DNA of 40,795 nt, from the IMG/VR virus record IMGVR_UViG_3300020156_000055, positions 1-40,795 of that record; one strand, 5' to 3'. The notes under the pieces were generated by a model. That model was not told where the DNA came from. It made no database searches and saw nothing but the letters and a program-made list of their open reading frames with translations. Position numbers and translations under genes: made by a program. The stretch is from a virus. Shown piece after piece: positions 25,211-28,301 of this stretch. Each line of letters starts with the position of its first letter. Positions within the stretch are counted from its first letter, which is position 1.

Positions 25211-25717
25211 TCAAGCAGCGATTCGCGGCACCAGAACGCCGAGATCCGCCAAGCCTTGCAGCGCGATCGCGCATTCATCGCCGAAAGCAAACATCGCACT
25301 ACCGGCTCCCGAGCGGCCCTTTTTGTGACTGTTCTCATGTCCGGGCACAAAGGCGATGCGGCCCTTTATCAGCAGGGTCGCCGAGGCGCAGGCCATTGCT
25401 TCCTGGAACCACTCGGCATCGGTACGGCTGAACACCAACGCAATTCCGTCACCGTGAGAGATAAGGCGGCGCATCCAGAAGCCGGTGTCAGGCCCGTAGG
25501 GTGGGTTCATCCAAACCCGGCCCGACCATTCTTTCGATAGGCCGTCATCGAAGATCGTGTACTTCGTCTCTGCCGGTACCGCCGTTACATAGTCGTGCGG
25601 GCTGGATGGGTCGAGGTCGAACTGCAGGCCGAGACGTTCGAATATCCAGGCTGGCGTGTACCACTCGACGCTCTTGTGCTTCGGCTGAGCCTCTCGGGCG
25701 CCAATCATTCCACTCAT
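25211..25717 (-). CDS. Dam-type DNA N6-adenine methyltransferase
   Basis: This 168-residue protein matches the short phage adenine methyltransferase family (Dam, PF05869). Typical features are EWYTPAWIFERLGLQFDLDP, where the aspartates start the cofactor-binding part, then VWMNPPYGPDTGFWMRR with catalytic NPPY at 71-74, and later IALVFSRTDAEWFQ. There is no cognate restriction enzyme nearby, so it is an orphan methylase probably used to mask phage DNA or time packaging. Target sequence cannot be read from the protein. Confidence 0.92.
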   Translation of the reverse strand: MSGMIGAREAQPKHKSVEWYTPAWIFERLGLQFDLDPSSPHDYVTAVPAETKYTIFDDGLSKEWSGRVWMNPPYGPDTGFWMRRLISHGDGIALVFSRTDAEWFQEAMACASATLLIKGRIAFVPGHENSHKKGRSGAGSAMFAFGDECAIALQGLADLGVLVPRIAA

Positions 25718-27299: not shown

Positions 27300-28301
27300 T
27301 TATGTTTCGAGGTAGGCGGCTATGAATTGCGTCGCCGCTTCAGCATTGATGGCGTTTCCGTAGGCGCGCAGGCGTCCCACACGGGAGGGAGCGCCATCAG
27401 CCAGCGGGAATGTTCCGGGTTCAACTGGCCGCCACTTTCCATCCCGGCATCCGAGCCAATCAACATCTCTCCAGAAGCCGTTAACCGGGCCGGCTCCGCT
27501 GCTGTGTAGACTTGATTCCGCAACCGTGAACCGCTTGTCGGTCCCCCATTTATGTACTTCTCCCACTGCGCCAGCGAGCCTGTCCTCCCCGCATCCTCTA
27601 CCGTCGGCGTGCACCAACCCGAACAAACCGTCACCGTCTTCCGGCTGCTGTCGTTGTTGCCCGCTGCGTTGTTCCCATTCTGTGCCGGAGTTCCTGCCAT
27701 TGGCGTAGGCCAGCCGGTCAGGGCGACTATCTGGTTCAGTGGCCGCCCTGTGTCCCAGGGCCTCGCGTCCTTTGCCCCCCGATTCGCGTCCGCCGCGGTC
27801 ACTGTGGGCCACCCAGAATAATCGGTCTCGGATGTGCGGCGCACCGACGCCCGCAGACGGAAACGGGACGGCCCCGAAGGCGTAGTCCAGGGCTTCCAGG
27901 TCAGCATGTACAAGGTCGACCCAAGGCTCGACAGCCTTGCTCGCAACCTGCTCTCCAAAGATGACTGGAGGCGTGCACTGCTTGATGAGCCAGGCAAAAG
28001 TTGGCCAGAGGTGCCTTGAGTCCTCAAACCCAGCTCCAGCGCCTGCCGCGCTGAAAGGTTGGCAAGGACAGGAACCGGTCCAAACAGGTCGATCATCTGC
28101 CCAGCCGGCACGCCGAAGGGCGAGAGACCAGACGCCGACGCCGGCGAAGAAGTGGCACTGCGTGAAGCCGCGCAGGTCGCTTGGGTGGACATCCTCGATA
28201 CTCCTTTCATCCACGACGCCTGGCGCAATGTGGCCGGCGTCAATCAGGTTGCGTAGCCACTGGGCGGCGTATGGATCGATTTCGTTGTAATAAGCGGACA
28301 A
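27300..28301 (-). CDS. C5-cytosine DNA methyltransferase
   Basis: This 333-residue enzyme should methylate cytosine in phage DNA. It has motif I (HFFAGVGVWSLALRRAGW, 50-67), the catalytic PCQ at 79-81 in GSCPCQPFSAAG, motif VI as IFGEQV (115-119 region), motif VIII HIRDRLFWVA, and motif IX-X at the end (RVGRLRAYGNAINAEAATQF). The start is TTG 28301, with GAGGTG 5-10 bases upstream, followed by the usual YYNEIDPYAAQWLR. The target-recognition part (about 170-280) is low-complexity and overlaps another open frame on the same strand. No restriction partner is seen. Confidence 0.92.
   Translation of the reverse strand: MSAYYNEIDPYAAQWLRNLIDAGHIAPGVVDERSIEDVHPSDLRGFTQCHFFAGVGVWSLALRRAGWADDRPVWTGSCPCQPFSAAGAGAGFEDSRHLWPTFAWLIKQCTPPVIFGEQVASKAVEPWVDLVHADLEALDYAFGAVPFPSAGVGAPHIRDRLFWVAHSDRGGRESGGKGREALGHRAATEPDSRPDRLAYANGRNSGTEWEQRSGQQRQQPEDGDGLFGLVHADGRGCGEDRLAGAVGEVHKWGTDKRFTVAESSLHSSGAGPVNGFWRDVDWLGCRDGKWRPVEPGTFPLADGAPSRVGRLRAYGNAINAEAATQFIAAYLET
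27320..28096 (-). CDS. Candidate overlapping same-strand gene with WPTP motifs
   Basis: A second frame on the same strand as the cytosine methyltransferase is open from 28243 to 27320. A plausible start is ATG 28096 (MIDLFGPVPVLANLSARQAL), giving 258 residues. It reads LGSTLYMLTWK, then TPSGPSRFRLRASVRRTSE, several W-P-T motifs (GWPTVTAADAN, GWPTPMAGTP), and ends GQLNPEHSRWLMALPPVWDA. I recall phage proteins of this type (W-P-T-P repeats and LNPxxxxWLM near the end) annotated as separate genes near cytosine methylases. It may be truly dual-coded, or an open shadow frame that databases have propagated. No strong ribosome site is visible. Confidence 0.4.
   Translation of the reverse strand: MIDLFGPVPVLANLSARQALELGLRTQGTSGQLLPGSSSSARLQSSLESRLRARLSSLGSTLYMLTWKPWTTPSGPSRFRLRASVRRTSETDYSGWPTVTAADANRGAKDARPWDTGRPLNQIVALTGWPTPMAGTPAQNGNNAAGNNDSSRKTVTVCSGWCTPTVEDAGRTGSLAQWEKYINGGPTSGSRLRNQVYTAAEPARLTASGEMLIGSDAGMESGGQLNPEHSRWLMALPPVWDACAPTETPSMLKRRRNS

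Follow-up and report, generated by a model that had tools for sequence, protein, structure and literature searches.

A second evolved protein-coding frame within a phage cytosine-C5 DNA methyltransferase gene, most likely encoding the missing part of the same enzyme

Cytosine-C5 DNA methyltransferases in which motif IX resides on a second polypeptide are known. M.EcoHK31I was reportedly described as a two-polypeptide methyltransferase by Lee, Kam and Shaw in 1995; its smaller polypeptide is said to be encoded inside the larger gene, in another frame, and to be about 176 amino acids long. The small domain of C5 enzymes accommodates both motif IX and the recognition region (PMC3404938). In M.EcoHK31I (YGGCCR) motifs I-VIII and X are located in the larger and only motif IX in the smaller polypeptide, both polypeptides are required, and the recognition domain has been assigned to the larger one (PMC3404938). 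M.AquI (CYCGRG) is also a two-subunit C5 methyltransferase, and its smaller subunit bears motif IX as well as some of the variable region (PMC3404938).

Overlapping gene pairs of a similar layout are likewise on record in phages. Both ORFs have been annotated, one within the other and in the +1 frame, in E. coli phage K1ind3 (ORF30/ORF29) and in Paenibacillus phage Diva (gp49/gp50, the inner one being a 'g49 internal gene'), and both were recorded by the annotators of Paenibacillus phage Kiel007. No function was assigned to the inner gene of K1ind3 or Diva ('Mte8-like', 'hypothetical'), and the inner gene of K1ind3 and of the Paenibacillus phages is recorded but unexplained. A literature search, with most subscription journals and REBASE outside its range, found no paper in which the phage family is treated as a split enzyme with nested genes. 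The novelty of the present study is the breadth of the nested arrangement, which extends over several phyla and includes phages, prophages and plasmids, together with the apparent assignment of the recognition segment to the inner gene product.

The window, that is the whole stretch of DNA analysed here, is a virus record of 40,795 bases that includes genes for a phage terminase, portal and integrase. The initial annotation had claimed two overlapping same-strand ORFs in it, and this was confirmed: they occupy 27300-28301 and 27320-28243, both on the minus strand, the inner one being in the +1 frame relative to the outer one and encoding 307 aa at its full extent. The products of the outer and inner genes are referred to below as alpha and beta (Table 1). 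By description the locus resembles M.EcoHK31I, since motifs I, IV, VI, VIII and X are found in the window alpha and a motif-IX-like segment in the window beta, and, as in M.EcoHK31I, the smaller gene is nested in the larger one in another frame. It differs from that enzyme in three respects: selection places the recognition segment here in the smaller polypeptide, whereas the recognition domain of M.EcoHK31I is in the larger one; beta has 290 aa instead of about 176; and the window enzyme is phage-encoded, with no restriction partner noticed. With M.AquI it would share the split C5 enzyme and the presence of motif IX and a part of the variable region in the smaller subunit, but motif X, which M.AquI has in its smaller subunit, stays in alpha at this locus (GRLRAYGNAIN), and beta is nested.

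Table 1. Position of the two genes and of their main features in the window.
Feature	Coordinates	Strand	Remarks
alpha, C5-cytosine DNA methyltransferase catalytic subunit, 333 aa	27300..28301	minus	TTG start
beta, 290 aa, +1 frame, wholly within alpha	27320..28192	minus	ATG start; proposed motif IX/target-recognition subunit
likely initiation site of beta: AAAGGAG and ATG with 8 nt between them	28190..28207	minus	lies in alpha codons E-R-S-I-E-D
alpha motif I, CHFFAGVGVW	28128..28157	minus	conservation; aligned to HhaI
alpha motif IV, GSCPCQPFS (catalytic PCQ)	28050..28076	minus	conservation; HhaI alignment
alpha motif VIII, GAPHIRDRLFWV	27810..27845	minus	conservation; HhaI alignment
dual-coding core, beta 45-122 (LSARQA...LTWKPW...RLRASVRRTS) over alpha motifs IV-VIII	27827..28060	minus	purifying selection, both frames
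probable variable target-recognition segment, beta 127-233 (W(P)TP repeats) over alpha 166-270	27494..27814	minus	beta-only constraint; alpha modelled as disordered
motif-IX-like segment in the beta frame, QLNPEHSRWLMALPPVW	27377..27427	minus	distant-beta profile match; never in both frames
alpha motif X, GRLRAYGNAIN	27345..27377	minus	conservation; adjoins beta motif IX in the other frame

Alpha matched the Pfam family DNA_methylase (PF00145, 5.6e-11) and phrog_363 (1.6e-91), and the 307-aa ORF of the second frame matched phrog_31772 (2.9e-41) and phrog_1008 (5.4e-38). All three PHROGs families are labelled 'DNA methyltransferase', and the database says nothing of phrog_363, which holds the window alpha, and phrog_1008/phrog_31772, which hold the window beta, being two frames of one gene. 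Near alpha, a separate 168-aa ORF (window 25211-25717, minus) matched the middle of phrog_111 (DNA methyltransferase, 345 positions) with 7.9e-34, and may represent a short or truncated second methyltransferase.

Motifs I, IV (PCQ), VI (E-V), VIII (RxR) and X (GN) are present in alpha in this order and are invariant or nearly so among 68 homologues; the Foldseek matches of its AlphaFold model are HaeIII/HhaI methyltransferases. The methyltransferase had initially been credited with all catalytic motifs, which needs correction: motif IX is missing from the alpha polypeptide, whose +1 frame contains a motif-IX-like segment, and alpha was therefore classed as the catalytic portion of a split enzyme. 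The conserved 20-residue end of beta carries the motif IX pattern (LNPxxxxWLMGxPxxW) and stops at 27377, where motif X of alpha starts. A profile of distant betas aligned correctly with the motif IX of C5 enzymes that have it in frame (a short match, E 0.0036), and the same alignment ranked best with the profile of the window's own beta, where it was short and not significant (E 0.28). Far relatives have the same layout, with LNPEFVEWLMGYPTGW or RRMLPSEYEILQGFPEGW in the +1 frame.

The same division was seen among 345 distinct C5 methyltransferases, in which motif IX was detected in the +1 frame only in 258, in frame only in 12 and in both in none (75 were left uncalled by the motif pattern); the ratio of 258 to 12 is no prevalence, because relatives of the window are over-represented in this sample. 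No +1 stop lies between motifs IV and IX in 248 of these 258 genes, and the 12 enzymes with an in-frame motif IX have a mean of 9 +1 stops. The distance from motif IX to motif X has a median of 22 residues in the split enzymes versus 29 in the in-frame ones. At four loci (L006, L038, L044, L049) alpha is 486-495 aa long and runs well past the end of beta, possibly with an extra C-terminal domain.

In our view the locus very probably encodes, in two overlapping frames of the same strand, a cytosine-C5 DNA methyltransferase that is naturally split in the manner of M.EcoHK31I. Alpha, in frame 0, would form the catalytic large domain with motifs I, IV, VI and VIII and the motif X helix, while the second product, which would be translated in +1 from its own ribosome-binding site and ATG, is most likely the missing part of the same enzyme, contributing motif IX and probably the target-recognition segment. 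The initial annotation had not identified the second product in this way. Beta would then correspond to the small domain of an M.HhaI-like enzyme, and its joining to alpha would yield an active, sequence-specific methyltransferase. We infer the translation of beta, the formation of the heterodimer, the recognition by beta and the role in methylation from the sequence comparisons; by analogy with M.EcoHK31I, both predicted polypeptides would be needed for methylation.

It is unlikely that beta is a real overprinted gene with a separate function, for instance in anti-restriction, DNA binding or regulation of the methylase, and not a subunit of the enzyme. Such a function would be compatible with the finding that beta 45-233, the larger part of the protein, has no recognised domain in Pfam or PDB and that the model does not resolve its fold: PDB sequence searches with beta or with the beta profile gave nothing meaningful, the AlphaFold model was poor (pLDDT 57), and its Foldseek matches were dismissed as noise, leaving no fold match. 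Nevertheless, the motif-IX-like segment occurs in beta and not in alpha, and never in both, beta has never been seen without alpha at the loci searched, and M.EcoHK31I provides a precedent for a subunit of this kind.

The linkage of beta to alpha is obligate in the material searched. Beta overlapped alpha at 323/323 beta loci (some from the same contigs). Among 274 genomes (class of a Pseudomonas relative) it was present in 10 and coincided with alpha in all 10; with a distant beta as query 80 viral loci were obtained, each having beta in the +1 frame of an alpha (80/80). A viral scan with the beta of locus L343 retrieved no loci. The nested layout was also found in 8/8 records from Bacillota, Bacteroidota and Spirochaetota with a GC content of 0.42-0.51, which are phages or plasmids of Paenibacillus, Lacticaseibacillus, Porphyromonas, Bacteroides and Leptospira. 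The window-type and the distant betas are homologous (profile-profile comparison, 99.6%, E 1.5e-23), and phrog_1008 matches 5/6 distant +1 ORFs; judged by these comparisons, beta is a protein family conserved across distant hosts. A match to the window +1 protein is present in 192 of 50,697 phage records. Homologues standing away from a methylase frame, which the initial annotation had thought worth looking for, were sought in viral contigs, genome contigs, phages and plasmids, and none was found at about 400 loci.

Loci L456-L461 were considered as a standalone-beta exception and rejected, as they contain separate motif IX+X cassettes and belong to another enzyme type. In these (e.g. L457:1010-3908) a gene for the catalytic half of a C5 methyltransferase (motifs I-VIII) precedes a tandem array of 4-5 short ORFs that overlap slightly and all possess a motif IX and a motif X of their own; a single catalytic subunit is apparently accompanied by several interchangeable recognition subunits. 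A second kind of +1 ORF overlapping C5 methylase genes, in which the sequence ...PKYxLSxKAxxGILRRAERRGKxLPEAL... coincides with the end of the catalytic domain, was observed at L456:1380-1880, L457:1233-1724 and L346:1775-2332, and the one in L346 has motif IX too and a weak match to PF00145 (E 0.08).

The second frame is a real evolved protein-coding frame, and it is very improbable that it is a shadow ORF, held open by codon usage and conserved methylase motifs, with phrog_1008 and phrog_31772 as artefact families. Long spurious +1 frames are indeed frequent in high-GC genes, just one ORF is listed in most annotation files, and the permutation of synonymous codons in single genes was weakly significant in many cases (p > 0.01 in 57/115). 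However, the window gene taken alone gave p about 0.001 for a +1 ORF of this length, and when 72 diverse representatives were permuted within each gene, the overlap proved to contain 7 stops where 222 were expected; in the codons ahead of it there were 122, with 98 expected. In 114 distinct IMG/VR homologues, retrieved with alpha or with beta as query, the +1 stops were confined to the first ~42 codons and the gene end, and the +2 frame of the same genes contained 6-25 stops. The +1 frame is still open in relatives at GC 0.38-0.50, and below a GC of 0.50 +1 stops were absent in 14/14 split genes versus a mean of 11 for in-frame enzymes. Purifying selection specific to beta, even where alpha is unconstrained, and a start site kept against codon preference also contradict a shadow.

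Of the two explanations initially offered, real dual coding is therefore supported by the stop depletion and the constraint in both frames, and a database family that is only a shadow of methylase genes is unsupported in view of the 7 versus 222 stops and the constrained beta. Frequent second-frame stops in homologous methylases had been named as the observation that would speak against dual coding; these stops proved to be infrequent and the reading survives.

The ATG at 28192 is the likely start of the second gene, whereas the TTG at 28243 is merely the first start-like codon after the preceding stop; the ORF initially proposed at 27320-28243 does exist, but its start needs correction. AAAGGAG sits 8 nt before the ATG, and beta residues 2-44 are likewise unconstrained. 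The alpha residues E-R-S-I-E-D-V are often spelt (A/C)GG-AGY-ATY-GAR-GAT-GTN, which creates a Shine-Dalgarno-like GGAG and the beta ATG. GAT was used at alpha D37 in 92%, whereas the remaining Asp codons of these genes were GAT in 36%, and AGG at alpha R33 in 42% versus 5.5% at other Arg codons. The beta ATG is kept by this synonymous codon choice in the 'RSIEDV' codons of alpha: it was present in 105/114 homologues, the remaining 9/114 having ACG (8) or ACA (1). GGAG was located 7-8 nt ahead of an ATG in 71/115, and a clear GGAG was missing in about 40% of the homologues; other relatives have CGATCG instead of AGGAGT, therefore the ATG is more uniformly kept than the ribosome-binding site. 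In the distant families a start-codon test ([LIVFM][ND]G upstream of PCQ) at 16 usable loci revealed no clear bias.

Since hundreds of loci in phages and bacteria have the nested overlap, it could be measured for each region how the two frames share the constraint. Substitutions were classed by their effect, according to whether alpha, beta, both or neither was changed. In pairs 80-90% identical, dNN/dSN was 0.52 and dNS/dSS 0.26 for alpha, and for beta dNN/dNS was 0.58 (95% interval 0.52-0.64) and dSN/dSS 0.29 (0.23-0.36). Over pairs above 80% identity the beta values were 0.44-0.58 for dNN/dNS and about 0.29 for dSN/dSS, the latter being imprecise because few sites are silent in both frames; the few pairs at 88-98.5% identity agreed in dNN/dNS, with wide intervals. 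Synonymous-site constraint, the test suggested at the outset, is present in both frames. To our knowledge, same-strand overlaps of nearly 300 codons with both frames demonstrably under selection are rare.

Dual coding is uneven along the overlap. In the beta-based alignment, beta 2-44 is unconstrained (1.03) and alpha strongly constrained (0.14), and over beta 45-122 both are constrained (alpha dNN/dSN 0.21, beta dNN/dNS 0.30). Over beta 127-233 constraint is found in beta (dNN/dNS 0.46, dSN/dSS 0.35) and not in alpha (1.39/1.05; these values slightly above 1 do not mean positive selection, because different beta codon positions are compared), and over beta 234-277 it returns to both frames (alpha 0.49, beta 0.35). 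The alpha-based alignment gave the same regional picture. The AlphaFold model of alpha has a confident catalytic core and a pLDDT <50 in residues 179-282. As the recognition region is constrained in the second frame only, it is the methylase frame that is there nearer to being the shadow, and the recognition segment appears to belong to beta.

The mechanical link between the frames noticed initially does hold, WPTP of beta being read as LAxA/VAxA in alpha; the third base of the beta P codon takes all four values, therefore the alpha residue drifts among N, D, H and Y while beta keeps WPTP. The overlap does cover the target-recognition region, as had been supposed, but it is not limited to it, as the catalytic motifs are overlapped too. 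In the split enzyme the sequence would accordingly be shared in three ways: beta 45-122 over motifs IV-VIII would be dual-coding, the recognition segment would be led by beta, with alpha forming only a flexible bridge to motif X, and the IX/X junction would be dual-coding again. At L165:1135-3630 (EBPR siphovirus 2 gp44) a methylase is annotated at 831 aa with beta-like pieces in its +1 frame, which suggests an enlarged version of the same overlap.

Programmed ribosomal frameshifting, by which the frames would be fused into one full-length methyltransferase polypeptide, is highly improbable too: the +1 motif IX ends where the frame-0 motif X starts, so that a fused product would have the linear order of a one-chain enzyme, but two shifts would be required (0 to +1, then back to 0) and a separate Shine-Dalgarno-like site and ATG are conserved for beta.

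A broader proposal, on which we are evenly divided, is that nested split C5 methyltransferases form a large, ancient and mostly unannotated class in which the +1 subunit sets the specificity and which originated by slip and overprinting. The recognition/motif IX stretch of a one-chain enzyme might have slipped into the +1 frame, after which beta might have been extended backwards over the catalytic domain by overprinting.

With the split enzyme as the preferred reading, a family of 'hypothetical' or 'DNA methyltransferase' proteins would turn out to be an enzyme's hidden half. DNA is probably not read by the variable region of the methylase as annotated, and if specificity does reside in the hidden +1 subunit, specificity predictions made from the annotated methylase use the wrong frame. 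It should also be a warning that one of the two frames is usually discarded by gene callers. At L468:885-1913 and L469:1197-2084 the annotation is without alpha: the methylase frame was missed, and the sole entry is a 'hypothetical protein' that is partial or in the +1 frame.
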